Shown here: one piece after another, positions 7,355 through 61,005 of the stretch | Numbering within the stretch: the stretch's first letter is position 1 | Layout of the letters: each line of letters starts with the position of its first letter | Source of the DNA: Diprion similis | Lineage: Eukaryota > Arthropoda > Insecta > Hymenoptera > Diprionidae | Direction of reading: 5' to 3' | DNA: 64,000 nucleotides | NCBI RefSeq assembly: GCF_021155765.1 | Contig: NC_060115.1 | Coordinates: 6,862,493-6,926,492 of the forward strand | Notes under the pieces: generated by a model | The model's database searches: none | What the model was told of the DNA's origin: nothing | What the model saw: only the letters and a program-made list of their open reading frames with translations | Position numbers and translations under genes: made by a program

Positions 7355-10300
7355 GTCCGAGACGGAAAATTGTTGACTCCAAAAATGACCAAAAAACAAG
7401 GCTAACCCCTTTGGATTTTTGGCGAAAATTTCGACGACTTTGAAAAGTGCTGCAATTAATTTTGTAGGACACTATTCCGACGTAATTTTGCGAGAGAAAT
7501 CGATTTAGCGTAGTCCCAATACGCTGCGAGCAACGGATCAAAAGTTACAGCCAAAAAACTGCAGATTTTCATCGTCATTTCTCTGCTGTTGGTCCTACGC
7601 TTTTTTTAATGTGTTTTTTGAGTTCCTGGGGTTCCAATTAACCTAGAAACGGTCATACAAATCAATTCGAAGATCAGAAATTTTCAGCTCCAAAAATCGC
7701 AAAAAAAGTAAGGCTAACCCCTTTGGATTTTTGGCGAAAATTTCGACGACTTTGAAAAGTGCTGCAATTAATTTTGTAGGACACTATTCCGACGTAATTT
7801 TGCGAGAGAAATCGATTGAGCGTAGTCCCAATACGCTGCGAGCGACGGATCAAAAGTTACAGCCAAAAAACTGCGGATTTTCATCGTCATTTCTCTGCTG
7901 TTGGTCCCACGCTTTTTTTAATGTGTTTTTTGAGTTCCTGGGGTTCCAATGAGCCTAGAAACGGTCATAGTAATCAATTCGGAGATCAGAAATTTTCAGC
8001 TCCAAAAATCGCAAAAAAAGTAAGGCTAACCCCTTTGGATTTTTGGCGAAAATTTCGACGACTTTGAAAGGTGCTGCAATTAATTTTGTAGGACACTATT
8101 CCGACGTAATTTTGCGAGAGAAATCGATTGAGCGTAGTCCCAATACGCTGCGAGCAACGGATCAAAAGTTACAGCCAAAAAACTGCGGATTTTCATCGTC
8201 ATTTCTCTGCTGTTGGTCCCACGCTTTTTTTAATGTGTTTTTTGAGTTCCTGGGGTTCCAATGAGCCTAGAAACGGTCATACAAATCAATTCGAAGATCA
8301 GAAATTTTCAGCTCCAAAAATCGCAAAAAAAGTAAGGCTAGCCCCTTTGGATTTCTGGCGAAAATTTCGACGACTTTGAAAAGTGCTGCAATTAATTTTG
8401 TAGGACACCATTCCGACGTCATTTTGCGAGAGAAATCGATTGAGCGTAGTCCCAATACGCTGCGAGCAACGGATCAAAAGTTACAGCCAAAAAACTGCAG
8501 ATTTTCATCGTCATTTCTCTGCTGTTGGTCCTACGCTTTTTTTAATGTGTTTTTTGAGTTCCTGGGGTTCCGATTAGCCTAGAAACGGTCATACAAATCA
8601 ATTCGAAGATCAGAAATTTTCAGCTCCAAAAATCGCAAAAAAAGTAAGGCTAACCCCTTTGGATTTTTGACGAAAATTTCGACGACTTTGAAAAGTGCTG
8701 CAATTAATTTTGTAGGACACTATTCCGACGTAATTTTGCGAGAGAAATCGATTGAGCGTAGTCCCAATACGCTGCGAGCAACGGATCAAAAGTTACAGCC
8801 GAAAAACAGCAGATTTTCATCGTCATTTCTCTGCTGTTGGTCCTACGCTTTTTTAAATGTGTTTTTTGAGTTCCTGGGGTTCCAATTAGCCTAGAAACGG
8901 TCATAGTAATCAATTCGGAGATCAGAAATTTTCAGCTCCAAAAATCGCAAAAAAAGTAAGGCTAACCCCTTTGGATTTTTGGCGAAAATTTCGACGACTT
9001 TGAAAAGTGCTGCAATTAATCTTGTAGGACACTATTCCGACGTAATTTTGCGAGAGAAATCGATTGAGCGTAGTCCCAATACGCTGCGAGCAACGGATCA
9101 AAAGTTACAGCCAAAAAACTGCAGATTTTCATCGTCATTTCTCTGCTGTTGGTCCCACGCTTTTTTTAATGTGTTTTTTGAGTTCCTGGGGTTCCAATTA
9201 GCCTAGAAACGGTCATAGTAATCAATTTGGAGATCAGAAATTTTCAGCTCCAAAAATCGCAAAAAAAGTAAGGCTAACCCCTTTGGATTTTTGGCGAAAA
9301 TTTCGACGACTTTGAAAAGTGCTGCAATTAATTTTGTAGGACACTATTCCGACGTAATTTTGCGAGAGAAATCGATTGAGCGTAGTCTCAATACGCTGCG
9401 AGCAACGGATCAAAAGTTACAGCCAAAAAACTGCAGATTTTCATCGTCATTTCTCTGCTGTTGGTACCACGCTTTTTTTGATGTGTTTTTTGAGTTCCTG
9501 GGGTTTCAATTAGCCTAGAAACGGTCATACAAATCAATTCGAAGATCAGAAATTCTCAGCTCCAAAAATCGCAAAAAAAGTAAGGCTAACCCCTTTGGAT
9601 TTCTGGCGAAAATTTCGACGACTTTGAAAAGTGCTGCAATTAATTTTGTGGGACACCATTCCGACGTAATTTTGCGAGAGAAATCGATTGAGCGTAGTCC
9701 CAATACGCTGCGAGCAACGGATCAGAAGTTACAGCCAAAAAACTGCAGATTTTCATCGTCATTTCTCTGCTGTTGGTCCTACGCTTTTTTTAATGTGTTT
9801 TTTGAGTTCCTGGGGTTCCAATCAGCCTAGAAACGGTCATACAAATCAATTCGAAGATCAGAAATTTTCAGCTCCAAAAATCGGAAAAAAGTAAGGCTAA
9901 CCCCTTTGGATTTTTGACGAAAATTTCGACGACTTTGAAAAGTGCTGCAATTATTTTGTAGGACACTATTCCGACGTAATTTTGCAAGAGAAATCGATTG
10001 AGCGTAGTCCTAATACGCTGCGAGCAACGGATCAAAAGTTACAGCCAAAAAACTGCAGATTTTCATCGTCATTTCTCTGCTGTTGGTCCTACGCTTTTTT
10101 AAATGTGTTTTTTGAGTTCCTGGGGTTCCAATTAGCCTAGAAACGGTCATAGTAATCAATTCGGAGATCAGAAATTTTCAGCTCCAAAAATCGCAAAAAA
10201 AGTAAGGCTAACCCCTTTGGATTTTTGGCGAAAATTTCGACGACTTTGAAAAGTGCTGCAATTAATCTTGTAGGACACTATTCCGACGTAATTTTGCGAG

Positions 10301-16100: not shown

Positions 16101-16189
16101 AAATTTTCAGCTCCAAAAATCGCAAAAAAAAGTAAGGCTAACCCCTTTGGATTTTTGGCGAAAATTTCGACGACTTTGAAAAGTGCTGC

Positions 16190-19100: not shown

Positions 19101-19815
19101 AAACTGCAGATTTTCATCGTCATTTCTCTGCTGTTGGTCCCACGCTTTTTTTAATGTGTTTTTTGAGTTCCTGGGGTTTCAATCAGCCTAGAAACGGTCA
19201 TACAAATCAATTCGAAGATCAGAAATTTTCAGCTCCAAAAATCGCAAAAAAAGTAAGGCTAACCCCTTTGGATTTTTGGCGAAAATTTCGACGACTTTGA
19301 AAAATGCTGCAATTAATTTTGTAGGACACCATTCCGACGTAATTTTGCGAGAGAAATCGATTGAGCGTAGTCCCAATACGCTGCGAGCAACGGATCAAAA
19401 GTTACAGCCAAAAAACTGCAGATTTTCATCGTCATTTCTCTGCTGTTGGTCCTACGCTTTTTTTAATGTGTTTTTTGAGTTCCTGGGGTTCCAATTAGCC
19501 TAGAAACGGTCATACAAATCAATCCGAAGATCAGAAATATTCAGCTCCAAAAATCGCAAAAAAAGTAAGGCTAACCCCTTTGGATTTTTGACGAAAATTT
19601 CGACGACTTTGAAAAGTGCTGCAATTAATTTTGTAGGACACTATTCCGACGTAATTTTGCGAGAGAAATCGATTGAGCGTAGTCCCAATACGCTGCGAGC
19701 AACGGATCAAAAGTTACAGCCAAAAAACTGCAGATTTTCATCGTCATTTCTCTGCTGTTGGTCCTACGCTTTTTTTTATGTGTTTTTTGAGTTCCTGGGG
19801 TTCCAATTAGCCTAG
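16190..19815 (+). repeat. Eight-unit higher-order repeat (2497 bp)
   Basis: Variant combinations at 16190-17318 recur at 18687-19815, an offset of 2497 bp (eight units plus one base). They include the GATTTTAGAGGAC variant, the GTAACAGCC variant and the AAAAATGCTGC variant in the same order. Only part of the eight-unit block is preserved in the second copy. Confidence 0.7.
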
Positions 19816-22800
19816 AAACGTTCATACAAATCAATTCGAAGATCAGAAATTTTCAGCTCCAAAAATCGCGAAAAAAGTAAGGCTAACCCCTCTGGATTTT
19901 TGGCGAAAATTTCGACGACTTTGAAAAGTGCTGCAATTAATTTTGTAGGACACTATTCCGACGTAATTTTGCGAGAGAAATCGATTGAGCGTAGTCCCAA
20001 TACGCTGCGAGCAACGGATCAAAAGTTACAGCCAAAAAACTGCAGATTTTCATCGTCATTTCTCTGCTGTTGGTCCTACGCTTTTTTTAATGTGTTTTTT
20101 GAGTTCCTGGGGTTCCAATTAGCCTAGAAACGGTCATACAAATCAATTCGAAGATCAGAAATTTTCAGCTCCAAAAATCGCAAAAAAAGTAAGGCTAACC
20201 CCTTTGGATTTTTGACGAAAATTTCGACGACTTTGAAAAGTGCTGCAATTAATTTTGTAGGACACTGTTCCGACGTAATTCTGCGAGAGAAATCGATTGA
20301 GCGTAGTCCCAATACGCTGCGAGCAACGGATCAAAAGTTACAGCCAAAAAACTGCAGATTTTCATCGTCATTTCTCTGCTGTTGGTCCTACGCTTTTTTT
20401 AATGTGTTTTTTGAGTTCCTGGGGTTCCAATTAGCCTAGAAACGGTCATACAAATCAATCCGAAGATCAGAAATTTTCAGCTCCAAAAATCGCGAAAAAA
20501 GTAAGGCTAACCCCTTTGGATTTTTGGCGAAAATTTCGACGACTTTGAAAAGTGCTGCAATTAATTTTGTAGGACACTATTCCGACGTAATTTTGCGAGA
20601 GAAATCGATTGAGCATAGTCCCAATACGCTGCGAGCAACGGATCAAAAGTTACAGCCAAAAAACTGCAGATTTTCATCGTCATTTCTCTGCTGTTGGTCC
20701 TACGCTTTTTTTAATGTGTTTTTTGAGTTCCTGGGGTTCCAATTAGCCTAGAAACGGTCATACAAATCAATTCGAAGATCAGAAATTTTCAGCTCCAAAA
20801 ATCGCAAAAAAAGTAAGGCTAACCCCTTTGGATTTTTGACGAAAATTTCGACGACTTTGAAAAGTGCTGCAATCAATTTTGTAGGACACTATTCCGACGT
20901 AATTTTGCGAGAGAAATCGATTAAACGTAGTCCCAATACGCTGCGAGCAACGGATCAAAAGTTACAGCCAAAAAACTGCAGATTTTCATCGTCATTTCTC
21001 TGCTGTTGGTCCTACGCTTTTTTTAATGTGTTTTTTGAGTTCCTGGGGTTCCAATTAACCTAGAAACGGTGATACAAATCAATTCGAAGATCAGAAATTT
21101 TCAGCTCCAAAAATCGCAAAAAAAAGTAAGGCTAACCCCTTTGGATTTTTGGCGAAAAATTCGACGACTTTGGAAAGTGCTGCAATTAATTTTGTAGGAC
21201 ACTATTCCGACGTAATTTTGCGAGAGAAATCGATTGAGCGTAGTCCCAATACGCTGCGAGCAACGGATCAAAAGTTACAGCCAAAAAACTGCAGATTTTC
21301 ATCGTCATTTCTCTGCTGTTGGTCCTACGGTTTTTTTAATGTGTTTTTTGAGTTCCTGGGGTTCCAATTAACCTAGAAACGGTGATACAAATCAATTCGA
21401 AGATCAGAAATTTTCAGCTCCAAAAATCGCAAAAAAAAGTAAGGCTAACCCCTTTGGATTTTTGGCGAAAAATTCGACGACTTTGGAAAGTGCTGCAATT
21501 AATTTTGTAGGACACTATTCCGACGTAATTTTGCGAGAGAAATCGATTGAGCGTAGTCCCAATACGCTGCGAGCAACGGATCAAAAGTTACAGCCAAAAA
21601 ACTGCAGATTTTCATCGTCATTTCTCTGCTGTTGGTCCTACGCTTTTTTTAATGTGTTTTTTGAGTTCCTGGGGTTCCAATTAGCCTAGAAACGGTCATA
21701 CAAATCAATTCGAAGATCAGAAATTTTCAGCTCCAAAAATCGCGAAAAAAGTAAGGCTAACCCCTTTGGATTTTTGGCGAAAATTTCGACGACTTTGAAA
21801 AGTGCTGCAATTATTCTGTAGGACACTATTCCGACGTAATTTTGCGAGAGAAATTGATTGAGCATAGTCCCAATACGCTGCGAGCAACGGATCAAAAGTT
21901 ACAGCCAAAAAACTGCAGATTTTCATAGTCATTTCTCTGCTGTTGGTCCTACGCTTTTTTTAATGTGTTTTTTGAGTTCCTGGGGTTCCAATTAGCCTAG
22001 GAACGGTCTTACAAATCAATCCGAAGATCAGAAATTTTCAGCTCCAAAAATCGCAAAAAAAGTAAGGCTAACCCCTTTGGATTTTTGACGAAAATTTCGA
22101 CGACTTTGAAAAGTGCTGCAATTAATTTTGTAGGACACTATTCCGACGTAATTTTGCGAGAGAAATCGATTGAGCGTAGTCCCAATACGCTGCGAGCAAC
22201 GGATCAAAAGTTACAGCCAAAAAACTGCAGATTTTCATCGTCATTTCTCTGCTGTTGGTCCTACGCTTTTTTTAATGTGTTTTTTGAGTTCCTGGGGTTC
22301 CAATTAGCCTAGAAACGGTCATACAAATCAATTCGAAGATCAGAAATTTTCAGCTCCAAAAATCGCGAAAAAAGTAAGGCTAACCCCTTTGGATTTTTGG
22401 CGAAAATTTCGACGACTTTGAAAAGTGCTGCAATTAATTTTGTAGGACACCATTCCGACGTAATTTTGCGAGAGAAATCGATTGAGCGTAGTCCCAATAC
22501 GCTGCGAGCAACGGATCAAAAGTTACAGCCAAAAAACTGCAGATTTTCATCATCATTTCTCTGCTGTTGGTCCTACGCTTTTTTTAATGTGTTTTTTGAG
22601 TTCCTGGGGTTCCAATTAGCCTAGAAACGGTCATACAAATCAATCCGAAGATCAGAAATTTTCAGCTCCGAAAATCGCAAAAAAAGTAAGGCTAACCCCT
22701 TTGGATTTTTGACGAAAATTTCGACGACTTTGAAAAGTGCTGCAATTAATTTTGTAGGACACTATTCCGACGTAATTTTGCGAGAGAAATCGATTGAGCG

Positions 22801-24184
22801 TAGTCCCAATACGCTGCGAGCAACGGATCAAAAGTGACAGCCAAAAAACTGCAGATTTTCATCGTCATTTCTCTGCTGTTAGTCCTACGCTTTTTTCAAT
22901 GTGTTTTTTGAGTTCCTGGGGTTTCAATTAGCCTAGAAACGGTCATAGTAATCAATTCGGAGATCAGAAATTTTCAGCTCCAAAAATCGCAAAAAAAGTA
23001 AGGCTAACCCCTTTGGATTTTTGGCGAAAATTTCGACGACTTTGGAAAGTGCTGCAATTAATTTTGTAGGACACTATTCCGACGTAATTTTGCGAGAGAA
23101 ATCGATTGAGCGTAGTCCTAATACGCTGCGAGCAACGGATCAAAAGTAACAGCCAAAAAACTGCAGATTTTCATCGTCATTTCTCTGCTGTCGGTCCCAC
23201 GCTTTTTTTAATGTGTTTTTTGAGTTCCTGGGGTTTCAATCAGCCTAGAAACGGTCATACAAATCAATTCGAAGATCAGAAATTTTCAGCTCCAAAAATC
23301 GCAAAAAAAGTAAGGCTAACCCCTTTGGATTTTTGGCGAAAATTTCGACGACTTTGAAAAATGCTGCAATTAATTTTGTAGGACACCATTCCGACGTAAT
23401 TTTGCGAGAGAAATCGATTGAGCGTAGTCCCAATACGCTGCGAGCAACGGATCAAAAGTTACAGCCAAAAAACTGCAGATTTTCATCATCATTTCTCTGC
23501 TGTTGGTCCTACGCTTTTTTTAATGTGTTTTTTGAGTTCCTGGGGTTCCAATTAGCCTAGAAACGGTCATACAAATCAATCCGAAGATCAGAAATTTTCA
23601 GCTCCAAAAATCGCGAAAAAAGTAAGGCTAACCCCTTTGGATTTTTGGCGAAAATTTCGACGACTTTGAAAAGTGCTGCAATTAATTTTGTAGGACTCTA
23701 TTCCGACGTAATTTTGCGAGAGAAATCGATTGAGCATAGTCCCAATACGCTGCGAGCAACGGATCAAAAGTTACAGCCAAAAAACTGCAGATTTTCATCG
23801 TCATTTCTCTGCTGTTGGTCCTACGCTTTTTTAAATGTGTTTTTTGAGTTCCTGGGGTTCCAATTAGCCTAGAAACGGTCATACAAATCAATTCGAAGAT
23901 CAGAAATTTTCAGCTCCAAAAATCGCAAAAAAAGTAAGGCTAACCCCTTTGGATTTTTGACGAAAATTTCGACGACTTTGAAAAGTGCTGCAATCAATTT
24001 TGTAGGACACTATTCCGACGTAATTTTGCGAGAGAAATCGATTAAACGTAGTCCCAATACGCTGCGAGCAACGGATCAAAAGTTACAGCCAAAAAACTGC
24101 AGATTTTCATCGTCATTTCTCTGCTGTTGGTCCTACGCTTTTTTTAATGTGTTTTTTGAGTTCCTGGGGTTCCAATTAGCCTAG
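19504..24184 (+). repeat. Fifteen-unit higher-order repeat, copy 1 (4681 bp)
   Basis: This block repeats almost exactly at 24185-28865. Shared private variants include GAAATATTCAGC near 19535/24216, a T8 run before ATGTG near 19770/24451, CCCCTCTGG near 19889/24570, GCAATTATTCTGTAGG near 21810/26491 and TTTTCATAGTC near 21920/26601. The boundaries are estimated from where variant matching stops. Confidence 0.88.
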
Positions 24185-36353: not shown

Positions 36354-39300
36354 CTAGAAACGGTCATACAAATCAATTCGAAGATCAGAAATTTTCAGCT
36401 CCAAAAATCGCGAAAAAAGTAAGGCTAACCCCTTTGGATTTTTGGCGAAAATTTCGACGACTTTGAAAAGTGCTGCAATTAATTTTGTAGGACACCATTC
36501 CGACGTAATTTTGCGAGAGAAATCGATTGAGCGTAGTCCCAATACGCTGCGAGCAACGGATCAAAAGTTACAGCCAAAAAACTGCAGATTTTCATCGTCA
36601 TTTCTCTGCTGTTGGTCCCACGCTTTTTTTAATGTGTTTTTTGAGTTCCTGGGGTTTCAATCAGCCTAGAAACGGTCATACAAATCAATTCGAAGATCAG
36701 AAATTTTCAGCTCCAAATATCGCAAAAAAAGTAAGGCTAACCCCTTTGGATTTTTGGCGAAAATTTCGACGACTTTGAAAAATGCTGCAATTAATTTTGT
36801 AGGACACCATTCCGACGTAATTTTGCGAGAGAAATCGATTGAGCGTAGTCCCAATACGCTGCGAGCAACGGATCAAAAGTTACAGCCAAAAAACTGCAGA
36901 TTTTCATCATCATTTCTCTGCTGTTGGTCCTACGCTTTTTTTAATGTGTTTTTTGAGTTCCTGGGGTTCCAATTAGCCTAGAAACGGTCATACAAATCAA
37001 TCCGAAGATCAGAAATTTTCAGCTCCAAAAATCGCAAAAAAAGTAAGGCTAACCCCTTTGGATTTTTGACGAAAATTTCGACGACTTTGAAAAGTGCTGC
37101 AATTAATTTTGTAGGACACTATTCCGACGTAATTTTGCGAGAGAAATCGATTGAGCGTAGTCCCAATACGCTGCGAGCAACGGATCAAAAGTTACAGCCA
37201 AAAAACTGCAGATTTTCATCGTCATTTCTCTGCTGTTGGTCCTACGCTTTTTTTTATGTGTTTTTTGAGTTCCAGGGGTTCCAATTAGCCTAGAAACGTT
37301 CATACAAATCATTTCGAAGATCAGAAATTATCAGCTCCAAAAATCGCGAAAAAAGTAAGGCTAACCCCTTTGGATTTTTGGCGAAAATTTCGACGACTTT
37401 GAAAAGTGCTGCAATTAATTTTGTAGGACACTATTCCGACGTAATTTTGCGAGAGAAATCGATTGAGCGTAGTCCCAATACGCTGCGAGCAACGGATCAA
37501 AAGTGACAGCCAAAAAACTGCAGATTTTCATCGTCATTTCTCTGCTGTTGGTCCTACGCTTTTTTTAATGTGTTTTTTGAGTTCCTGGGGTTCCAATTAG
37601 CCTAGAAACGGTCATACAAATCAATTCGAAGATCAGAAATTTTCAGCTCCAAAAATCGCAAAAAAAGTAAGGCTAACCCCTTTGGATTTTTGACGAAAAT
37701 TTCGACGACTTTGAAAAGTGCTGCAATTAATTTTGTAGGACACTATTCCGACGTAATTTTGCGAGAGAAATCGATTGAGCGTAGTCCCAATACGCTGCGA
37801 GCAACGGATCAAAAGTTACAGCCGAAAAACTGCAGATTTTCATCGTCATTTCTCTGCTGTTGGTCCTACGCTTTTTTTAATGTGTTTTTTGAGTTCCTGG
37901 GGTTTCAATTAGCCTAGAAACGGTCATAGTAATCAATCCGGAGATCAGAAATTTTCAGCTCCAAAAATCGCAAAAAAAAGTAAGGCTAACCCCTTTGGAT
38001 TTTTGGCGAAAATTTCGACGACTTTGAAAAGTGCTGCAATTAATTTTAAAGGACACTATTCCGACGTAATTTTGCGAGAGAAATCGATTGAGCGTAGTCC
38101 CAATACGCTGCGAGCAACGGATCAAAAGTGACAGCCAAAAAACTGCAGATTTTCATCGTCATTTCTCTGCTGTTAGTCCTACGCTTTTTTTAATGTGTTT
38201 TTTGAGTTCCTGGGGTTTCAATTAGCCTAGAAACGGTCAAAGTAATCAATTCGGAGATCAGAAATTTTCAGCTCCAAAAATCGCAAAAAAAGTAAGGCTA
38301 ACCCCTTTGGATTTTTGGCGAAAAATTCGACGACTTTGGAAAGTGCTGCAATTAATTTTGTAGGACACTATTCCGACGTAATTTTGCGAGAGAAATCGAT
38401 TGAGCGTAGTCCCAATACGCTGCGAGCAACGGATCAAAAGTTACAGCCGAAAAACTGCAGATTTTCATCGTCATTTCTCTGCTGTTGGTCCTACGCTTTT
38501 TTTAATGTGTTTTTTGAGTTCCTGGGGTTCCAATTAGCCTAGAAACGGTCATACAAATCAATTCGAAGATCAGAAATTTTCAGCTCCAAAAATCGCGAAA
38601 AAAGTAAGGCTAACCCCTTTGGATTTTTGGCGGAAATTTCGACGACTTTGAAAAGTGCTGCAATTAATTTTGTAGGACACTATTCCGACGTAATTTTGCG
38701 AGAGAAATCGATTGAGCGTAGTCCTAATACGCTGCGAGCAACGGATCAAAAGTGACAGCCAAAAAACTGCAGATTTTCATCGTCATTTCTCTGCTGTTGG
38801 TCCTACGCTTTTTTTAATGTGTTTTTTGAGTTCCTGGGGTTCCAATTAGCCTAGAAACGGTCATACAAATCAATTCGAAGATCAGAAATTTTCAGCTCCA
38901 AAAATCGCAAAAAAAGTAAGGCTAACCCCATTGGATTTTTGGCGAAAATTTCGACGACTTTGAAAAGTGCTGCAATTATTTTGTAGGACACCATTCCGAC
39001 GTAATTTTGCGAGAGAAATCGATTGAGCGTAGTCCCAATACGCTGCGAGCAACGGATCAAAAGTTACAGCCAAAAAACTGCAGATTTTCATCGTCATTTC
39101 TCTGCTGTTGGTCCTACGCTTTTTTTAATGTGTTTTTTGAGTTCCTGGGGTTCCAATTAACCCAGAAACGGTGATACAAATCAATTCGAAGATCAGAAAT
39201 TTTCAGCTCCAAAAATCGCAAAAAAAAGTAAGGCTAACCCCTTTGGATTTTTGGCGAAAATTTCGACGACTTTGAAAAGTGCTGCAATTAATTTTAGAGG

Positions 39301-40103
39301 ACACTATTCCGACGTAATTTTGCGAGAGAAATCGATTGAGCGTAGTCCCAATACGCTGCGAGCAACGGATCAAAAGTGACAGCCAAAAAACTGCAGATTT
39401 TCATCGTCATTTCTCTGCTGTTGGTCCTACGCTTTTTTTAATGTGCTTTTTGAGTTCCTGGGGTTTCAATTAGCCTAGAAACGGTCATAGTAATCAATTC
39501 GGAGATCAGAAATTTTCAGCTCCAAAAATCGCAAAAAAAGTAAGGCTAACCCCTTTGGATTTTTGGCGAAAATTTCGACGACTTTGGAAAGTGCTGCAAT
39601 TAATTTTGTAGGACACTATTCCGACGTAATTTTGCGAGAGAAATCGATTGAGCGTAGTCCTAATACGCTGCGAGCAACGGATCAAAAGTTACAGCCAAAA
39701 AACTGCAGATTTTCATCGTCATTTCTCTGCTGTTGGTCCCACGCTTTTTTTAATGTGTTTTTTGAGTTCCTGGGGTTTCAATCAGCCTAGAAACGGTCAT
39801 ACAAATCAATTCGAAGATCAGAAATTTTCAGCTCCAAAAATCGCAAAAAAAGTAAGGCTAACCCCTTTGGATTTTTGGCGAAAATTTCGACGACTTTGAA
39901 AAGTGCTGCAATTAATTTTGTAGGACACCATTCCGACGTAATTTTGCGAGAGAAATCGATTGAGCGTAGTCCCAATACGCTGCGAGCAACGGATCAAAAG
40001 TTACAGCCAAAAAACTGCAGATTTTCATCATCATTTCTCTGCTGTTGGTCCTACGCTTTTTTTAATGTGTTTTTTGAGTTCCTGGGGTTCCAATTAGCCT
40101 AGA
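35735..40103 (+). repeat. Fourteen-unit higher-order repeat, copy 1 (4369 bp)
   Basis: This matches 40104-44472 unit for unit. Shared private variants include GGAATAAAAG near 36246/40615, CCAAATATCGC near 36713/41082, ATCATTTCGAAG near 37308/41677, GAAATTATCAG near 37325/41694 and AACCCCATTGG near 38925/43294. It overlaps the right end of the seven-unit zone, so the 4369-bp block was built partly from a seven-unit ancestor. Confidence 0.88.
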
Positions 40104-43100
40104 AACGGTCATACAAATCAATTCGAAGATCAGAAATTTTCAGCTCCAAAAATCGCGAAAAAAGTAAGGCTAACCCCTTTGGATTTTTGGCGAAAATTTC
40201 GACGACTTTGAAAAGTGCTGCAATTAATTTTGTAGGACACTATTCCGACGTAATTTTGCGAGAGAAATTGATTGAGCATAGTCCCAATACGCTGCGAGCA
40301 ACGGATCAAAAGTTACAGCCAAAAAACTGCAGATTTTCATCGTCATTTCTCTGCTGTTGGTCCTACGCTTTTTTTAATGTGTTTTTTGAGTTCCTGGGGT
40401 TCCAATTAGCCTAGAAACGGTCTTACAAATCAATCCGAAGATCAGAAATTTTCAGCTCCTAAAATCGCAAAAAAAGTAAGGCTAACCCCTTTGGATTTTT
40501 GACGAAAATTTCGACGACTTTGAAAAGTGCTGCAATTAATTTTGTAGGACACCATTCCGACGTAATTTTGCGAGAGAAATCGATTGAGCGTAGTCCCAAT
40601 ACGCTGCGAGCAACGGAATAAAAGTTACAGCCAAAAAACTGCAGATTTTCATCGTCATTTCTCTGCTGTTGGTCCTACGCTTTTTTTAATGTGTTTTTTG
40701 AGTTCCTGGGGTTCCAATTAGCCTAGAAACGGTCATACAAATCAATTCGAAGATCAGAAATTTTCAGCTCCAAAAATCGCGAAAAAAGTAAGGCTAACCC
40801 CTTTGGATTTTTGGCGAAAATTTCGACGACTTTGAAAAGTGCTGCAATTAATTTTGTAGGACACCATTCCGACGTAATTTTGCGAGAGAAATCGATTGAG
40901 CGTAGTCCCAATACGCTGCGAGCAACGGATCAAAAGTTACAGCCAAAAAACTGCAGATTTTCATCGTCATTTCTCTGCTGTTGGTCCCACGCTTTTTTTA
41001 ATGTGTTTTTTGAGTTCCTGGGGTTTCAATCAGCCTAGAAACGGTCATACAAATCAATTCGAAGATCAGAAATTTTCAGCTCCAAATATCGCAAAAAAAG
41101 TAAGGCTAACCCCTTTGGATTTTTGGCGAAAATTTCGACGACTTTGAAAAATGCTGCAATTAATTTTGTAGGACACCATTCCGACGTAATTTTGCGAGAG
41201 AAATCGATTGAGCGTAGTCCCAATACGCTGCGAGCAACGGATCAAAAGTTACAGCCAAAAAACTGCAGATTTTCATCATCATTTCTCTGCTGTTGGTCCT
41301 ACGCTTTTTTTAATGTGTTTTTTGAGTTCCTGGGGTTCCAATTAGCCTAGAAACGGTCATACAAATCAATCCGAAGATCAGAAATTTTCAGCTCCAAAAA
41401 TCGCAAAAAAAGTAAGGCTAACCCCTTTGGATTTTTGACGAAAATTTCGACGACTTTGAAAAGTGCTGCAATTAATTTTGTAGGACACTATTCCGACGTA
41501 ATTTTGCGAGAGAAATCGATTGAGCGTAGTCCCAATACGCTGCGAGCAACGGATCAAAAGTTACAGCCAAAAAACTGCAGATTTTCATCGTCATTTCTCT
41601 GCTGTTGGTCCTACGCTTTTTTTTATGTGTTTTTTGAGTTCCAGGGGTTCCAATTAGCCTAGAAACGTTCATACAAATCATTTCGAAGATCAGAAATTAT
41701 CAGCTCCAAAAATCGCGAAAAAAGTAAGGCTAACCCCTTTGGATTTTTGGCGAAAATTTCGACGACTTTGAAAAGTGCTGCAATTAATTTTGTAGGACAC
41801 TATTCCGACGTAATTTTGCGAGAGAAATCGATTGAGCGTAGTCCCAATACGCTGCGAGCAACGGATCAAAAGTGACAGCCAAAAAACTGCAGATTTTCAT
41901 CGTCATTTCTCTGCTGTTGGTCCTACGCTTTTTTTAATGTGTTTTTTGAGTTCCTGGGGTTCCAATTAGCCTAGAAACGGTCATACAAATCAATTCGAAG
42001 ATCAGAAATTTTCAGCTCCAAAAATCGCAAAAAAAGTAAGGCTAACCCCTTTGGATTTTTGACGAAAATTTCGACGACTTTGAAAAGTGCTGCAATTAAT
42101 TTTGTAGGACACTATTCCGACGTAATTTTGCGAGAGAAATCGATTGAGCGTAGTCCCAATACGCTGCGAGCAACGGATCAAAAGTTACAGCCGAAAAACT
42201 GCAGATTTTCATCGTCATTTCTCTGCTGTTGGTCCTACGCTTTTTTTAATGTGTTTTTTGAGTTCCTGGGGTTTCAATTAGCCTAGAAACGGTCATAGTA
42301 ATCAATCCGGAGATCAGAAATTTTCAGCTCCAAAAATCGCAAAAAAAAGTAAGGCTAACCCCTTTGGATTTTTGGCGAAAATTTCGACGACTTTGAAAAG
42401 TGCTGCAATTAATTTTAAAGGACACTATTCCGACGTAATTTTGCGAGAGAAATCGATTGAGCGTAGTCCCAATACGCTGCGAGCAACGGATCAAAAGTGA
42501 CAGCCAAAAAACTGCAGATTTTCATCGTCATTTCTCTGCTGTTAGTCCTACGCTTTTTTTAATGTGTTTTTTGAGTTCCTGGGGTTTCAATTAGCCTAGA
42601 AACGGTCAAAGTAATCAATTCGGAGATCAGAAATTTTCAGCTCCAAAAATCGCAAAAAAAGTAAGGCTAACCCCTTTGGATTTTTGGCGAAAAATTCGAC
42701 GACTTTGGAAAGTGCTGCAATTAATTTTGTAGGACACTATTCCGACGTAATTTTGCGAGAGAAATCGATTGAGCGTAGTCCCAATACGCTGCGAGCAACG
42801 GATCAAAAGTTACAGCCGAAAAACTGCAGATTTTCATCGTCATTTCTCTGCTGTTGGTCCTACGCTTTTTTTAATGTGTTTTTTGAGTTCCTGGGGTTCC
42901 AATTAGCCTAGAAACGGTCATACAAATCAATTCGAAGATCAGAAATTTTCAGCTCCAAAAATCGCGAAAAAAGTAAGGCTAACCCCTTTGGATTTTTGGC
43001 GGAAATTTCGACGACTTTGAAAAGTGCTGCAATTAATTTTGTAGGACACTATTCCGACGTAATTTTGCGAGAGAAATCGATTGAGCGTAGTCCTAATACG

Positions 43101-44472
43101 CTGCGAGCAACGGATCAAAAGTGACAGCCAAAAAACTGCAGATTTTCATCGTCATTTCTCTGCTGTTGGTCCTACGCTTTTTTTAATGTGTTTTTTGAGT
43201 TCCTGGGGTTCCAATTAGCCTAGAAACGGTCATACAAATCAATTCGAAGATCAGAAATTTTCAGCTCCAAAAATCGCAAAAAAAGTAAGGCTAACCCCAT
43301 TGGATTTTTGGCGAAAATTTCGACGACTTTGAAAAGTGCTGCAATTATTTTGTAGGACACCATTCCGACGTAATTTTGCGAGAGAAATCGATTGAGCGTA
43401 GTCCCAATACGCTGCGAGCAACGGATCAAAAGTTACAGCCAAAAAACTGCAGATTTTCATCGTCATTTCTCTGCTGTTGGTCCTACGCTTTTTTTAATGT
43501 GTTTTTTGAGTTCCTGGGGTTCCAATTAACCCAGAAACGGTGATACAAATCAATTCGAAGATCAGAAATTTTCAGCTCCAAAAATCGCAAAAAAAAGTAA
43601 GGCTAACCCCTTTGGATTTTTGGCGAAAATTTCGACGACTTTGAAAAGTGCTGCAATTAATTTTAGAGGACACTATTCCGACGTAATTTTGCGAGAGAAA
43701 TCGATTGAGCGTAGTCCCAATACGCTGCGAGCAACGGATCAAAAGTGACAGCCAAAAAACTGCAGATTTTCATCGTCATTTCTCTGCTGTTGGTCCTACG
43801 CTTTTTTTAATGTGCTTTTTGAGTTCCTGGGGTTTCAATTAGCCTAGAAACGGTCATAGTAATCAATTCGGAGATCAGAAATTTTCAGCTCCAAAAATCG
43901 CAAAAAAAGTAAGGCTAACCCCTTTGGATTTTTGGCGAAAATTTCGACGACTTTGGAAAGTGCTGCAATTAATTTTGTAGGACACTATTCCGACGTAATT
44001 TTGCGAGAGAAATCGATTGAGCGTAGTCCTAATACGCTGCGAGCAACGGATCAAAAGTTACAGCCAAAAAACTGCAGATTTTCATCGTCATTTCTCTGCT
44101 GTTGGTCCCACGCTTTTTTTAATGTGTTTTTTGAGTTCCTGGGGTTTCAATCAGCCTAGAAACGGTCATACAAATCAATTCGAAGATCAGAAATTTTCAG
44201 CTCCAAAAATCGCAAAAAAAGTAAGGCTAACCCCTTTGGATTTTTGGCGAAAATTTCGACGACTTTGAAAAGTGCTGCAATTAATTTTGTAGGACACCAT
44301 TCCGACGTAATTTTGCGAGAGAAATCGATTGAGCGTAGTCCCAATACGCTGCGAGCAACGGATCAAAAGTTACAGCCAAAAAACTGCAGATTTTCATCGT
44401 CATTTCTCTGCTGTTGGTCCTACGCTTTTTTTAATGTATTTTTTGAGTTCCTGGGGTTCCAATTAGCCTAGA
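40104..44472 (+). repeat. Fourteen-unit higher-order repeat, copy 2 (4369 bp)
   Basis: This is the direct tandem copy of 35735-40103. Part of it (about 43220-44470) recurs once more at about 47902-49152, offset 4682 bp, giving a third partial copy with the same AACCCCATTGG variant. Confidence 0.88.
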
Positions 44473-46043
44473 AACGGTCATACAAATCAATTCGAAGATC
44501 AGAAATTTTCAGCTCCAAAAATCGCAAAAAAAGTAAGGCTAACCCCTTTGGATTTTTGGCGAAAATTTCGACGACTTTGAAACGTGCTGCAATTAATTTT
44601 GTAGCACACTATTCCGACGTAATTTTGCGAGAGAAATCGATTGAGCGGAGTCCCAATACGCTGCGAGCAACGGATCAAAAGTTACAGCCAAAAAACTGCA
44701 GATTTTCATCGTCATTTCTGTGCTGTTGGTCCTACGCTTTTTTTAATGTATTTTTTGAGTTCCCGGGGTTCCAAGTAGCCTAGAAACGGTCATACAAATC
44801 AATTCGGAGATCAGAAATTTTCAGCTCTAAAAATCGCAAAAAAAGTAAGGCTAACCCCTTGGGATTTTTGACGAAAATTTCGACGACTTTGAAAAGTGCT
44901 GCAATTAATTTTGTAGGACACTATTCCGACGTAATTTTGCGAGAGAAATCGATTGAGCGTAGTCCCAATACGCTGCGAGCAACGGATCAAAAGTTACAGC
45001 CAAAAAACTGCAGATTTTCATCGTCATTTCTCTGCTGTTGGTCCTACGCTTTTTTTAATGTGTTTTTTGAGTTCCTGGGGTTCCAATTAGCCTAGAAACG
45101 GTCATAGTAATCAATTCGGAGATCAGAAATTTTCAGCTCCAAAAATCGCAAAAAAAGTAAGGCTAACCCCTTTGGATTTTTGGCGAAAATTTCGACGACT
45201 TCGAAAAGTGCTGCAATTAATTTTGTAGGACACTATTCCGACGTCATTTTGCGAGAGAAATCGATTGAGCGTAGTCCCAATACGCTGCGAGCAACGGATC
45301 AAAAGTTACAGCCAAAAAACTGCAGATTTTCATCGTCATTTCTCTGCCGTTGGTCCTACGCTTTTTTTAATGTGTTTTTTGAGTTCCTGGGGTTTCAATT
45401 AGCCTAGAAACGGTCATACAAATCAATTCGGAGATCAGAAATTTTCAGCTCCAAAAATCGCAAAAAAAGTAAGGCTAACCCCTTGGGATTTTTGGCGAAA
45501 ATTTCGACGACTTTGAAAAGTGCTGCAATTAATTTTGTAGGACACTATTCCGACGTAATTTTGCGAGAGAAATCGATTGAGCGTAGTCCCAATACGCTGC
45601 GAGCAACGGATCAAAAGTTACAGCCAAAAAACTGCAGATTTTCATCGTCATTTCTCTGCTGTTGGTCCTACGCTTTTTTTAATGTGTTTTTTGAGTTCCT
45701 GGGGTTCCAATTAGCCTAGAAACGGTCATAGTAATCAATTCGGAGATCAGAAATTTTCAGCTCCAAAAATCGCAAAAAAAGTAAGGCTAACCCCTTTGGA
45801 TTTTTGGCGAAAATTTCGACGACTTTGAAAAGTGCTGCAATTAATTTTGTAGGACACTATTCCGACGTCATTTTGCGAGAGAAATCGATTGAGCGTAGTC
45901 CCAATACGCTGCGAGCAACGGATCAAAAGTTACAGCCAAAAAACTGCAGATTTTCATCGTCATTTCTCTGCTGTTGGTCCCACGCTTTTTTTAATGTGTT
46001 TTTTGAGTTCCTGGGGTTTCAATTAGCCTAGAAACGGTCATAC
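44473..46043 (+). repeat. Five-unit block duplicated 5618 bp downstream
   Basis: Units at 44556, 44859, 45180, 45483 and 45804 recur at 50174, 50477, 50798, 51101 and 51422 with the same private changes (AACGTGCTGC, GTAGCACAC, TTCCCGGGG, CCCCTTGGGAT, TCTGCCGTTGG). The offset is 5618 bp, 18 units plus two bases. The intervening units come from a different family, so the copies are separated rather than adjacent. Confidence 0.85.
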
Positions 46044-49000
46044 AAATCAATCCGAAGATCAGAAATTTTCAGCTTCAAAAATCGCAAAAAAAGTAAGGCT
46101 AACCCCTTTGGATTTTTGACGAAAATTTCGACGACTTTGAAAAGTGCTGCAATTAATTTTGTAGGACACTATTCCGACGTAATTTTGCGAGAGAAATCGA
46201 TTGAGCGTAGTCCCAATACGCTGCGAGCAACGGATCAAAAGTTACAGCCGAAAAACTGCAGATTTTCATCGTCATTTCTCTGCTGTTGGTCCTACGCTTT
46301 TTTTAATGTGTTTTTTGAGTTCCTGGGGTTTCAATTAGCCTAGAAACGGTCATAGTAATCAATTCGGAGATCAGAAATTTTCAGCTCCAAAAATCGCAAA
46401 AAAAAGTAAGGCTAACCCCTTTGGATTTTTGGCGAAAATTTCGACGACTTTGAAAAGTGCTGCAATTAATTTTAGAGGACACTATTCCGACGTAATTTTG
46501 CGAGAGAAATCGATTGAGCGTAGTCCCAATACGCTGCGAGCAACGGATCAAAAGTGACAGCCAAAAAACTGCAGATTTTCATCGTCATTTCTCTGCTGTT
46601 AGTCCTACGCTTTTTTTAATGTGTTTTTTGAGTTCCTGGGGTTTCAATTAGCCTAGAAACGGTCATAGTAATCAATTCGGAGATCAGAAATTTTCAGCTC
46701 CGAAAATCGCAAAAAAAGTAAGGCTAACCCCTTTGGATTTTTGGCGAAAAATTCGACGACTTTGGAAAGTGCTGCAATTAATTTTGTAGGACACTATTCC
46801 GACGTAATTTTGCGAGAGAAATCGATTGAGCGTAGTCCCAATACGCTGCGAGCAACGGATCAAAAGTTACAGCCGAAAAACTGCAGATTTTCATCGTCAT
46901 TTCTCTGCTGTTGGTCCTACGCTTTTTTTAATGTGTTTTTTGAGTTCCTGGGGTTCCAATTAGCCTAGAAACGGTCATACAAATCAATTCGAAGATCAGA
47001 AATTTTCAGCTCCTAAAATCGCGAAAAAAGTAAGGCTAACCCCTTTGGATTTTTGGCGAAAATTTCGACGACTTTGAAAAGTGCTGCAATTAATTTTGTA
47101 GGACACTATTCCGACGTGATTTTGCGAGAGAAATCGATTGAGCATAGTCCCAATACGCTGCGAGCAACGGATCAAAAGTTACAGCCAAAAAACTGCAGAT
47201 TTTCATCGTCATTTCTCTGCTGTTGGTCCTACGCTTTTTTTAATGTGTTTTTTGAGTTCCTGGGGTTCCAATTAACCCAGAAACGGTGATACAAATCAAT
47301 TCGAAGATCAGAAATTTTCAGCTCCAAAAATCGCAAAAAAAAGTAAGGCTAACCCCTTTGGATTTTTGGCGAAAATTGCGACGACTTTGAAAAGTGCTGC
47401 AATTAATTTTAGAGGACACTATTCCGACGTAATTTTGCGAGAGAAATCGATTGAGCGTAGTCCCAATACGCTGCGAGCAACGGATCAAAAGTGACAGCCA
47501 AAAAACTGCAGATTTTCATCGTCATTTCTCTGCTGTTAGTCCTACGCTTTTTTTAATGTGTTTTTTGAGTTCCTGGGGTTTCAATTAGCCTAGAAACGGT
47601 CATAGTAATCAATTCGGAGATCAGAAATTTTCAGCTCCAAAAATCGCAAAAAAAGTAAGGCTAACCCCTTTGGATTTTTGGCGAAAATTTCGACGACTTT
47701 GGAAAGTGCTGCAATTAATTTTGTAGGACACCATTCCGACGTAATTTCGCGAGAGAAATCGATTGAGCGTAGTCCTAATACGCTGCGAGCAACGGATCAA
47801 AAGTTACAGCCAAAAAACTGCAGATTTTCATCGTCATTTCTCTGCTGTTGGTCCCACGCTTTTTTTAATGTGTTTTTTGAGTTCCTGGGGTTTCAATCAG
47901 CCTAGAAACGGTCATACAAATCAATTCGAAGATCAGAAATTTTCAGCTCCAAAAATCGCAAAAAAAGTAAGGCTAACCCCATTGGATCTTTGGCGAAAAT
48001 TTCGACGACTTTGAAAAGTGCTGCAATTATTTTGTAGGACACCATTCCGACGTAATTTTGCGAGAGAAATCGATTGAGCGTAGTCCCAATACGCTGCGAG
48101 CAACGGATCAAAAGTTACAGCCAAAAAACTGCAGATTTTCATCGTCATTTCTCTGCTGTTGGTCCTACGCTTTTTTTAATGTGTTTTTTGAGTTCCTGGG
48201 GTTCCAATTAACCCAGAAACGGTGATACAAATCAATTCGAAGATCAGAAATTTTCAGCTCCAAAAATCGCAAAAAAAAGTAAGGCTAACCCCTTTGGATT
48301 TTTGGCGAAAATTTCGACGACTTTGAAAAGTGCTGCAATTAATTTTAGAGGACACTATTCCGACGTAATTTTGCGAGAGAAATCGATTGAGCGTAGTCCC
48401 AATACGCTGCGAGCAACGGATCAAAAGTGACAGCCAAAAAACTGCAGATTTTCATCGTCATTTCTCTGCTGTTGGTCCTACGCTTTTTTTAATGTGCTTT
48501 TTGAGTTCCTGGGGTTTCAATTAGCCTAGAAACGGTCATAGTAATCAATTCGGAGATCAGAAATTTTCAGCTCCAAAAATCGCAAAAAAAGTAAGGCTAA
48601 CCCCTTTGGATTTTTGGCGAAAATTTCGACGACTTTGGAAAGTGCTGCAATTAATTTTGTAGGACACTATTCCGACGTAATTTTGCGAGAGAAATCGATT
48701 GAGCGTAGTTCTAATACGCTGCGAGCAACGGATCAAAAGTTACAGCCAAAAAACTGCAGATTTTCATCGTCATTTCTCTGCTGTTGGTCCCACGCTTTTT
48801 TTAATGTGTTTTTTGAGTTCCTGGGGTTTCAATCAGCCTAGAAACGGTCATACAAATCAATTCGAAGATCAGAAATTTTCAGCTCCAAAAATCGCAAAAA
48901 AAGTAAGGCTAACCCCTTTGGATTTTTGGCGAAAATTTCGACGACTTTGAAAAGTGCTGCAATTAATTTTGTAGGACACCATTCCGACGTAATTTTGCGA

Positions 49001-51645
49001 GAGAAATCGATTGAGCGTAGTCCCAATACGCTGCGAGCAACGGATCAAAAGTTACAGCCAAAAAACTGCAGATTTTCATCATCATTTCTCTGCTGTTGGT
49101 CCTACGCTTTTTTTAATGTATTTTTTGAGTTCCTGGGGTTCCAATTAGCCTAGAAACGGTCATACAAATCAATTCGAAGATCAGAAATTTTCAGCTCCAA
49201 AAATCGCAAGAAAAGTAAGGCTAACCCCTTTGGATTTTTGGCGAAAATTTCGACGACTTTGAAAAGTGCTGCAATTGATTTTGTAGGACACTATTCCGAC
49301 GTAATTTTGCGAGAGAAATCGATTGAGCGGAGTCCCAATACGCTGCGAGCAACGGATCAAAAGTTACAGCCAAAAAACTGCAGATTTTCATCGTCATTTC
49401 TCCGCTGTTGGTCCTACGCTTTTTTTAATGTGTTTTTTGAGTTCCTGGGGTTCCAATTAGCCTAGAAACGGTCATAGTAATCAATTCGGAGATCAGAAAT
49501 TTTCAGCTCCAAAAATCGCAAAAAAAGTAAGGCTAACCCCTTTGGATTTTTGGCGAAAATTTCGACGACTTTGAAAAGTGCTGCAATTAATTTTGTAGGA
49601 CACTATTCCGACGTAATTTTGCGAGAGAAATCGATTGAGCGTAGTCCCAATACGCTGCGAGCAACGGATCAAAAGTTACAGCCAAAAAACTGCAGATTTT
49701 CATTGTCATTTCTCTGCTGTTGGTCCTACGCTTTTTTTAATGTGTTTTTCGAGTTCCTGGGGTTCCAATTAGCCTAGAAACGGTCATAGTAATCAATTCG
49801 GAGATCAGAAATTTTCAGCTCCAAAAATCGCAAAAAAAGTAAGGCTAACCCCTTTGGATTTTTGACGAAAATTTTGACGACTTTGAAAAGTGCTGCAATT
49901 AATTTTGTAGGACACTATTCCGACGTAATTTTGCGAGAGAAATCGATTGAGCGTAGTCCCAATACGCTGCGAGCAACGGATCAAAAGTTACAGCCAAAAA
50001 ACTGCAGATTTTCATCGTCATTTCTCTGCTGTTGGTCCTACGCTTTTTTTGATGTATTTTTTGAGTTCCTGGGGTTCCAATTAGCCTAGAAACGGTCATA
50101 CAAATCAATTCGAAGATCAGAAATTTTCAGCTCCAAAAATCGCAAAAAAAGTAAGGCTAACCCCTTTGGATTTTTGGCGAAAATTTCGACGACTTTGAAA
50201 CGTGCTGCAATTAATTTTGTAGCACACTATTCCGACGTAATTTTGCGAGAGAAATCGATTGAGCGGAGTCCCAATACGCTGCGAGCAACGGATCAAAAGT
50301 TACAGCCAAAAAACTGCAGATTTTCATCGTCATTTCTCTGCTGTTGGTCCTACGCTTTTTTTAATGTATTTTTTGAGTTCCCGGGGTTCCAAGTAGCCTA
50401 GAAACGGTCATACAAATCAATTCGGAGATCAGAAATTTTCAGCTCTAAAAATCGCAAAAAAAGTAAGGCTAACCCCTTGGGATTTTTGACGAAAATTTCG
50501 ACGACTTTGAAAAGTGCTGCAATTAATTTTGTAGGACACTATTCCGACGTAATTTTGCGAGAGAAATCGATTGAGCGTAGTCCCAATACGCTGCGAGCAA
50601 CGGATCAAAAGTTACAGCCAAAAAACTGCAGATTTTCATCGTCATTTCTCTGCTGTTGGTCCTACGCTTTTTTTAATGTGTTTTTTGAGTTCCTGGGGTT
50701 CCAATTAGCCTAGAAACGGTCATAGTAATCAATTCGGAGATCAGAAATTTTCAGCTCCAAAAATCGCAAAAAAAGTAAGGCTAACCCCTTTGGATTTTTG
50801 GCGAAAATTTCGACGACTTTGAAAAGTGCTGCAATTAATTTTGTAGGACACTATTCCGACGTCATTTTGCGAGAGAAATCGATTGAGCGTAGTCCCAATA
50901 CGCTGCGAGCAACGGATCAAAAGTTACAGCCAAAAAACTGCAGATTTTCATCGTCATTTCTCTGCCGTTGGTCCTACGCTTTTTTTAATGTGTTTTTTGA
51001 GTTCCTGGGGTTTCAATTAGCCTAGAAACGGTCATACAAATCAATTCGGAGATCAGAAATTTTCAGCTCCAAAAATCGCAAAAAAAGTAAGGCTAACCCC
51101 TTGGGATTTTTGGCGAAAATTTCGACGACTTTGAAAAGTGCTGCAATTAATTTTGTAGGACACTATTCCGACGTAATTTTGCGAGAGAAATCGATAGAGC
51201 GTAGTCCCAATACGCTGCGAGCAACGGATCAAAAGTTACAGCCAAAAAACTGCAGATTTTCATCGTCATTTCTCTGCTGTTGGTCCTACGCTTTTTTTAA
51301 TGTGTTTTTTGAGTTCCTGGGGTTCCAATTAGCCTAGAAACGGTCATAGTAATCAATTCGGAGATCAGAAATTTTCAGCTCCAAAAATCGCAAAAAAAGT
51401 AAGGCTAACCCCTTTGGATTTTTGGCGAAAATTTCGACGACTTTGAAAAGTGCTGCAATTAATTTTGTAGGACACTATTCCGACGTCATTTTGCGAGAGA
51501 AATCGATTGAGCGTAGTCCCAATACGCTGCGAGCAACGGATCAAAAGTTACAGCCAAAAAACTGCAGATTTTCATCGTCATTTCTCTGCTGTTGGTCCCA
51601 CGCTTTTTTTAATGTGTTTTTTGAGTTCCTGGGGTTTCAATTAGC

Positions 51646-52897
51646 CTAGAAACGGTCATACAAATCAATTCGAAGATCAGAAATTTTCAGCTCCAAAAAT
51701 CGCAAAAAAAGTAAGGCTAACCCCTTTGGATTTTTGGCGAAAATTTCGACGACTTTGAAAAGTGCTGCAATTAATTCTGTAGGACACCATTCCGACGTAA
51801 TTTTGCGAGAGAAATCGATTGAGCGTAGTCCCAATACGCTGCGAGCAACGGATCAAAAGTTACAGCCAAAAAACTGCAGATTTTCATCGTCATTTCTCTG
51901 CTGTTGGTCCCACGCTTTTTTTCATGTGTTTTTTGAGTTCCTGGGGTTTCAATTAGCCTAGAAACGGTCATACAAATCAATTCGAAGATCAGAAATCTTC
52001 AGCTCCAAAAATCGCAAAAAAAGTAAGGCTAACCCCTTTGGATTTTTGGCGAAAATTTCGACGACTTTGAAAAGTGCTGCAATTAATTCTGTAGGACACC
52101 ATTCCGACGTAATTTTGCGAGAGAAATCGATTGAGCGTAGTCCCAATACGCTGCGAGCAACGGATCAAAAGTTACAGCCAAAAAACTGCAGATTTTCATC
52201 GTCATTTCTCTGCTGTTGGTCCCACGCTTTTTTTAATGTGTTTTTTGAGTTCCTGGGGTTTCAATTAGCCTAGAAACGGTCATACAAATCAATTCGAAGA
52301 TCAGAAATTTTCAGCTCCAAAAATCGCAAAAAAAGTAAGGCTAACCCCTTTGGATTTTTGGCGAAAATTTCGACGACTTCGAAAAGTGCTGCAATTAATT
52401 TTGTAGGACACCATTCCGACGTAATTTTGCGAGAGAAATCGATTGAGCGTAGTCCCAATACGCTGCGAGCAACGGATCAAAAGTTACAGCCAAAAAACTG
52501 CAGATTTTCATCGTCATTTCTCTGCTGTTGGTCCCACGCTTTTTTTAATGTGTTTTTTGAGTTCCTGGGGTTTCAATTAGCCTAGAAACGGTCATACAAA
52601 TCAATTCGAAGATCAGAAATTTTCAGCTCCAAAAATCGCAAAAAAAGTAAGGCTAACCCCTTTGGATTTTTGGCGAAAATTTCGACGACTTCGAAAAGTG
52701 CTGCAATTAATTTTGTAGGACACCATTCCGACGTAATTTTGCGAGAGAAATCGATTGAGCGTAGTCCCAATACGCTGCGAGCAACGGATCAAAAGTTACA
52801 GCCAAAAAACTGCAGATTTTCATCGTCATTTCTCTGCTGTTGGTCCTACGCTTTTTTTAATGTGTTTTTTGAGTTCCTGGGATTTCAATTAGCCTAG
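51646..52897 (+). repeat. Locally amplified single-unit run near the right edge
   Basis: Four successive units (51646, 51958, 52270, 52582) are nearly identical to each other at exactly 312-bp spacing. They share GGACACCATT and, pairwise, AATTCTGTAGG or GACTTCGAAAAG. This looks like recent single-unit or two-unit expansion rather than a long higher-order block. Confidence 0.75.
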
Positions 52898-53378
52898 AAA
52901 CGGTCATACAAATCAATTCGAAGAGCAGAAATCTTCAGCTCCAAAAATCGCAAAAAAAGTAAGGCTAACCCCTTTGGATTTTTGATGAAAATTTCGACGA
53001 CTTTGAAAAGTGCTGCAAATAATTCTTTAGGACACTATTCCGACGTAATTTTGCGAGAGCAATCGATTGAGCGTAGTCCCAATACGCTGCGAGCAACGGA
53101 TCAAAAGTTACAGCCAAAAAACTGCAGATTTTCATCGTCATTTCTCTGCTGTTGGTCACACGCTTTTTTCAATGTGTTTTTTGAGTTCCTGGGGTTTCAA
53201 TTAGCCTAGGAACGGTCATACAAATCAATTCGAAGATCAGAAATTTTCAGCTCCAAAAATCGCAAAAAAAAGGAAGGCTAACCCCTTTGGATTTTTGGCG
53301 AAAATTTCGACGACTTTGAAAAGTGCTGCAATTAATTCTTTAGGACACTATTCCGACGTAATTTTGCGAGAGAAATCG

Positions 53379-55111: not shown

Positions 55112-55365
55112 GTTTCACAAGGTATTTCCACTTGCAGAGGCGTCATGTCTTAACCTATTCACAGATTATCACTGATCTCACTGTTTTAGGTATATCGGTG
55201 CACCTCCTCTATCTGTAAATATCCCTATGCTCAGGATAAAATCTCCCGTATAAACCCGTGGTATAAACTCGTCACGACACAAGTAAATACTGGTGCCGGC
55301 GTTAACCTAAAAGCGAATTTGTATCGTATAAAATTCTACCCTATTATTATTAGTACCACCGCACT

Positions 55366-58866: not shown

Positions 58867-61005
<2,139 letters not shown>

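Follow-up and report, generated by a model that had tools for sequence, protein, structure and literature searches.

What kind of satellite occupies some 46 kb between ordinary genes in the genome of the hymenopteran Diprion similis, and is it set apart from other insect satellites by a higher-order organization or by its location? We addressed this question in a window of 64,000 nucleotides, i.e. the whole stretch of DNA that was analyzed (C11:6862493-6926492), and in the host assembly, which comprises 269 Mb in 60 contigs. TRF reported one satellite array in the window, located at 7377-53395, with a period of 312, 147.5 copies and 97% matches. The original prediction of about 147 tandem 312-bp units in 46 kb, for which the borders had been placed at 7355-53378, is thereby confirmed. 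Most of the space separating a minus-strand CRAL-TRIO gene from a plus-strand mRpL23-like gene is taken up by the array. The claim that it sits between ordinary genes holds as well, as genes were found on both sides:

7377-53395, plus strand: satellite array of about 147 monomers of 312 bp, arranged head to tail in a single orientation (TRF, monomer alignment and orientation search).
6034-6717, minus strand: left neighbor, reading frame of the CRAL-TRIO gene (Pfam, PF00650).
55464-56070, plus strand: right neighbor, gene of the ribosomal protein L23 family, mRpL23-like (Pfam, PF00276 in the first frame).
59466-60620, plus strand: second right neighbor, frames of a tubulin-tyrosine-ligase family gene (Pfam, PF03133).

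Cutting of the array yielded 147 monomers, of which 119 are 312 bp long (17 have 313, six 311, three 314 and two 310 bp), and all 148 full-length matches of the monomer profile in the window are on the plus strand. The last monomer is degenerate and shows 79 differences from the consensus. When it is excluded, pairwise divergence of the remaining 146 monomers averages 9.1 per 315 aligned columns, i.e. 2.9%. GC content is approximately 30% in the left flank and rises to an even 39% within the array, and the window is free of any N. A coding repeat could be ruled out, since the consensus contains at least one stop per monomer in every frame and the longest stop-free frame within the array comprises 112 codons. 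Thus, the locus is a long tandem head-to-tail array of non-coding monomers, and its earlier reading as a long young satellite array in gene-bearing insect DNA was right. A name for the 312-bp unit was not found in the literature searched, coverage of which was partial.

Several further properties of the monomer were recorded. Conservation along its length, which was inspected in search of a conserved box, varies marginally (permutation p of 0.058 for the minimum and 0.041 for the maximum). A dimeric origin of the monomer was ruled out by the best internal shift, which reaches an identity of only 35%. AA/TT/TA steps in the monomer consensus and the array are phased at 11.6 bp, with a power that was reached by none of 500 dinucleotide shuffles. 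The observed/expected ratio of CpG is 1.34 in the satellite and 1.04 and 1.02 in the flanks. Outside the array, TRF detected a small 28-bp tandem repeat with 2.9 copies (window 4610-4689).

The satellite family is abundant in the genome. A 36-base core of the monomer, searched with up to 3 mismatches, produced 29,941 genomic matches (15,425 forward, 14,516 reverse), and a second 36-mer from the monomer 15,866 (8,535 and 7,331); the reversed-pattern controls yielded no match on either strand in both cases. Within the window, the two 36-mers match 148 and 147 times, respectively. The lower genomic count of the second 36-mer indicates that many copies elsewhere are more divergent in that stretch. 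Counting one 311-bp monomer per match of the first 36-mer, the high copy number corresponds to about 9.3 Mb or about 3.5% of the genome, a figure that is approximate because the counts from the two 36-mers differ twofold. Monomers are present on at least ten large contigs (C1, C2, C3, C4, C6, C7, C8, C11, C12 and C14). TTAGG repeats mark the beginning of C1, and the assembly gave 103 odorant-receptor matches, a low number that may be in keeping with a sawfly. On C1, the arrays among the matches listed are located at approximately 0.12, 2.9, 4.3, 4.95, 7.1, 9.7 and 12.8 Mb. The family also includes variants in length: a subfamily with 304-bp spacing resides at C1:4.31-4.34 Mb (C1:4308754-4337973; loci L033 and L034) and a variant of 338-339 bp at locus L027.

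Are other arrays likewise flanked by genes? In 12 flanks of other arrays, 88 frames of at least 75 codons were present, and seven chosen frames from five of these flanks were run against Pfam. Genes were recognized in three of the five scanned flanks, namely NOL11 (L038), La plus an RNA-binding motif (L039) and LisH (L041), and the frames from the flanks L031 and L035 gave no Pfam recognition. A frame in the L050 1-3726 flank contains a short repeated peptide (PNYRQPIL-like), and is probably another tandem repeat. Judging from the recognized frames, some other arrays likewise adjoin genes. Arrays of this family thus occupy many chromosomal places, including places near genes, which is the distribution of a euchromatin-dispersed satellite. 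The locus in the window is not special; it is one array of an abundant dispersed family. The peculiarity of location that the original prediction had implied is accordingly not borne out, given a family that makes up about 3.5% of the genome and has further arrays beside genes.

This distribution is also difficult to reconcile with a structural role of the arrays, in which they would serve centromeres or a spread-out centromere. Long arrays of 312-bp units as well as the 11.6-bp phasing of A/T dinucleotides, reached by 0/500 shuffles, would be compatible with such a role. However, many arrays are located on the single chromosome C1 (at least seven places listed), some arrays lie beside genes, and searches by pattern for a CENP-B-like box detected no match in the window and no relaxed form in the consensus. 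A centromeric satellite is therefore very unlikely in our view.

To compare monomers between arrays, 29 sources, i.e. the window and 28 fetched loci, were searched for full-length monomers. Locus L034 with its 304-bp units yielded none and was dropped. Up to ten monomers from each of the remaining 28 sources gave a set of 190, which was reduced to 187 after merging stretches of the same array and excluding three lone monomers. For 178 of these 187 monomers the nearest neighbor resides within the same array, compared to a mean of 5.6% and a maximum of 12.6% upon shuffling of the labels. Ten sampled monomers of the window are 2.2% apart among themselves and 5.5% apart from the nearest other array. 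Hence, monomers are closer within arrays than between them, as in concerted evolution, in a sample that leans towards window-like arrays, because the arrays were fetched by similarity to a window monomer and divergent ones are under-sampled.

We then compared the monomers of the window all-versus-all along every diagonal, using shuffles of monomer order as null. Monomer order turned out to be non-random: 12 multi-monomer diagonal blocks were detected, whereas 100 shuffles of the order gave 0.07 on average. Blocks of 15 and of 14 monomers form near-perfect tandem duplications, and a lag of 18 monomers is present as partial pairs, one with 4 mismatches in 1753 positions and another with 37 in 2139. 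Further blocks at lags of 2185 (7 monomers), 6555 (21), 4370 (14) and 5618 bp (18) show differences of approximately 0.1-1.7%. In the 40 longest near-identical block pairs, the lags are at most 6 bases off whole multiples of 312, which is what in-register exchange would leave. The main blocks are:

19366-28832, plus strand: block of 15 monomers that was recently duplicated in tandem and is present about twice at a lag of 4681 bp (2 mismatches over 4786 bp).
35561-44582, plus strand: block of 14 monomers, likewise recently duplicated in tandem and present about twice at a lag of 4369 bp (4 mismatches over 4653 bp).
44299-51669, plus strand: partial block pair, lag 5618 bp (18 monomers), 44299-46051 and 49917-51669 (4 mismatches in 1753).
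27968-42013, plus strand: domain of 7-monomer periodicity (lags 7, 14, 21 and 35), the 7-mer being clearest from about 29529 to 36708 (lag averages and diagonal blocks).

The last of these features corresponds to monomers 65-109, in which lags of 7, 14, 21 and 35 monomers average 6.2, 4.3, 4.4 and 4.9 differences, respectively, versus 7.9 overall in this domain, each value being lower than in all 500 order shuffles. Here, a multi-monomer unit is more alike at its own period than adjacent monomers are, i.e. there is genuine higher-order organization. The 7-monomer lag of 2185 bp is periodic over monomers 70-93, corresponding to about 3.4 copies with a mean of 2.65 differences, and past about monomer 87 lag 14 alone persists. 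When all 146 monomers are considered, lags of 3, 4, 7, 9, 14, 15, 18, 21, 24, 28 and 35 monomers beat the shuffles (at most 5 of 500). Of the five higher-order periods proposed in the original prediction, those of 2185, 4369 and 4681 bp were recovered and that of 5618 bp is represented by partial pairs. In contrast, the period of 2497 bp (8 monomers) is high only in a raw lag scan; it lacks a diagonal block and its mean of 9.17 differences is close to the overall value of 9.15.

In primate alpha satellite, one higher-order unit is iterated many times. Could the array represent a true satellite of this type, whose principal repeating unit comprises several monomers and has been propagated many times? 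The non-random monomer order, the nested block lengths and a domain of 45 monomers with four lags below all 500 shuffles would fit. However, the clear 7-mer is present in about 3.4 copies only and the 14- and 15-monomer blocks in about 2, so that many-fold iteration of one unit is not the main organization of the array. Moreover, no periodic lag beats the order shuffles when monomers 0-59 are taken together, and even the best lag of the whole array, 14, still has a mean of 7.4 differences versus 9.15 overall. We consider an alpha-like organization improbable, and the comparison with alpha satellite drawn earlier was overstated, as the copy numbers of the blocks are about 2-3.4 and the period of 2497 bp lacks support. 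The nested blocks are genuine yet local and of few iterations. As the local 7-monomer periodicity shows, amplification by blocks exceeds what a purely monomeric array would display, and the higher-order organization is a local by-product.

The near identity of the two copied blocks might also raise the suspicion that the copy number was inflated by an assembly artefact. This is hardly credible, since the window lacks any N and has non-satellite flanks on both sides, the blocks are of graded divergence, and tens of thousands of monomers exist elsewhere in the genome.

The two edges of the array differ in structure. On the left, the array ends abruptly next to a dispersed repeat. At the right edge the array decays into a degenerate monomer, followed by sequence with dozens of genomic relatives (at least 60 matches at the 40 scored of 65 candidates, and 41 matches in each of two further searches). 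The features concerned are:

7089-7276, plus strand: dispersed repeat just beyond the left edge, extending to 7345-7357 in two close copies within C11 (with itself counted, 40 scored matches in the genome).
53383-53781, plus strand: degenerate edge monomer leading into the first part of an old composite of satellite and 416-bp core (79 differences; profile positions 3-320 correspond to 53435-53781; core alone, 53647-53808).
53883-54152, plus strand: second part of the 416-bp core, about 100 bp apart from the first part here (profile match; similar sequence at C11:5.61 Mb and elsewhere).

The other matches of the dispersed repeat at 7089-7276 have 72-84% identity, the closest among those scored being located at 5.77 and 7.24 Mb of C11. 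Satellite was found near this repeat at one of seven loci read (L012), with none nearby at the other six. The right flank (window 53385-54419) recurs, at 84-89%, at the border of an array in inverted orientation 1.3 Mb away (L020-L022; C11:5612658-5614519), which hints at a local duplication or inversion between arrays. Further to the right, a GA-rich inverted repeat (window 54978-55123) gave two weak sub-threshold matches to plant microRNAs in Rfam, which we take as chance; no Rfam family scored above cut-off anywhere in the window.

A profile of the composite, comprising 678 positions and derived from 11 loci, has pieces of the monomer at both ends flanking a 416-bp core. The core has no significant similarity to the monomer and contains stops in all six frames. 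A tRNA-headed SINE was ruled out, as ARAGORN detected no tRNA across ten loci. Scored matches on ten contigs display the arrangement of shortened monomer, core and monomer. Copies of the core are 66-83% identical to the copy at L027, which indicates that the composite is far older than the window array with its monomer divergence of about 3%. The core is located within 1.5 kb of 7 out of 18 array edges or gaps (the right edge of the window, L031, L033, L039, L043, L049 and the right edge of L050). It is absent from the other 11 within this distance, one of which is only about 100 bp long (L048), and from all 12 flank stretches further out (52 kb). These 18 edges had been fetched for similarity to the satellite rather than to the core, and two of them are the window's own, the right one carrying the core. 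Conversely, monomers are found beside the core in all 12 loci reached via flank or core sequence and then read (L020, L023-L029 and L051-L054), eight of which are not independent of the satellite because about 230 bp of degenerate monomer formed the start of the query. The edge-first test is therefore the fairer one. In the loci reached via the core, the distance between monomers within a locus can equal that between loci (e.g. 27.5% at L020, 16.7% at L025 and 15.3% at L024), indicating that homogenization is a trait of the younger arrays.

From the sequence evidence, we regard it as probable that the array is a locus of a major satellite dispersed in euchromatin, the growth of which takes place at ancient scattered seeds through unequal exchange. 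In this scenario, numerous sites would have received monomers in the distant past, frequently along with the 416-bp companion between monomer pieces, and at some of these seeds the monomers would subsequently have expanded in place. Expansion and homogenization may have proceeded by in-register unequal exchange, i.e. unequal crossing-over or replication slippage between monomers. Such a process would account for monomers that are specific to each array, for a degenerate edge and for copied blocks comprising 7, 14, 15 or 18 monomers, the latter being local and presumably soon overwritten. The array itself would have no function for the host. However, 11 of the 18 edges lack the core, the left edge of the window adjoins a different dispersed repeat, and neither a target-site duplication nor a terminal structure is established for the composite. 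Exchange between arrays or reinsertion of circular DNA could explain part of the pattern.

What was the vehicle of the seeds? It is possible, though we lean against it, that the monomers and the 416-bp core are the present or former interior of a non-autonomous transposable element and the arrays over-grown interiors of such elements, a reading that overlaps with seed expansion in that it names the vehicle. Recurrence of the same composite on ten contigs and at 7/18 array edges would be explained in this way, the end of the composite may resemble an A-rich tail as found in non-LTR elements, and there are parallels in oysters and Tribolium. However, comparison of the composite at 11 and 13 loci revealed no clear ends, target-site duplications or terminal repeats, and every reading frame of the core contains stops. 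The absence of a tRNA in ten loci and of an Rfam family above cut-off in the window likewise speaks against an element of this kind. A more far-reaching version is rather doubtful: most satellite copies would descend from one ancient mobile composite of monomer, 416-bp core and monomer, which seeded scores of euchromatic sites, and the arrays of up to tens of kb between genes would be seeds that ignited independently. If true, these seeds would represent a genome-wide natural experiment in the birth of arrays and of the first higher-order blocks.

Returning to growth at old dispersed seeds, a single locus here displays block copies, the young periodicity of 7 monomers, an edge monomer of old age and a composite shared with other edges. 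By itself this locus overturns nothing. Models of array nucleation, growth, higher-order blocks and homogenization beside working genes become testable here through synteny in sister species.

How does this satellite compare to known systems? With primate alpha satellite it shares blocks of monomers that are more alike than adjacent monomers, represented here by the local 7-monomer periodicity. Unlike in alpha satellite, iterations are few and confined to part of the array, the monomers are just about 3% divergent, and there is no sign of centromere specificity. A 2025 review distinguishes two distribution patterns of satellites and names insects in which abundant satellites are mainly euchromatic, e.g. 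Rhynchophorus ferrugineus and Rhodnius prolixus; Triatoma infestans is also listed among the insects with euchromatin-dominant satellites, and three satellites account for over 3% of the Rhodnius genome (PMC12692304). In Tribolium castaneum, TCAST satellite-like elements are euchromatic, near genes and on all chromosomes, one type being part of a complex transposon-like unit; they form up to tetramers, with equal homogenization between levels (PMC3411249). Scattered repeats of this beetle are discussed as satellite seeds in another article (PMC10218199), and a 2023 review argues along the same general lines (PMC10048060). For oysters, the 2025 review describes Helitron-linked tandem repeats, the monomers of which occur with a non-satellite companion and also as standalone arrays (PMC12692304). 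Euchromatin-dispersed satellites of insects had already been described, and the view that a location among genes is unusual does not stand (PMC12692304, PMC3411249).

As in the oyster repeats, the monomers studied here occur both beside a non-satellite companion sequence and in arrays of their own, whereas no Helitron ends or genes are shown. The satellite resembles Tribolium TCAST in its proximity to genes and differs from it in its array of about 147 units and strong local homogenization. Like the satellites of Rhynchophorus ferrugineus, Rhodnius prolixus and Triatoma infestans, it is abundant along chromosomes and contributes at least a few percent of the genome, a likeness drawn without sequence comparison; here, array, edges and genes are read base by base, with the location deduced from sequence alone. 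The array is thus genuine, yet it represents a type of repeated DNA that is already familiar and follows a pattern known from beetles and bugs.
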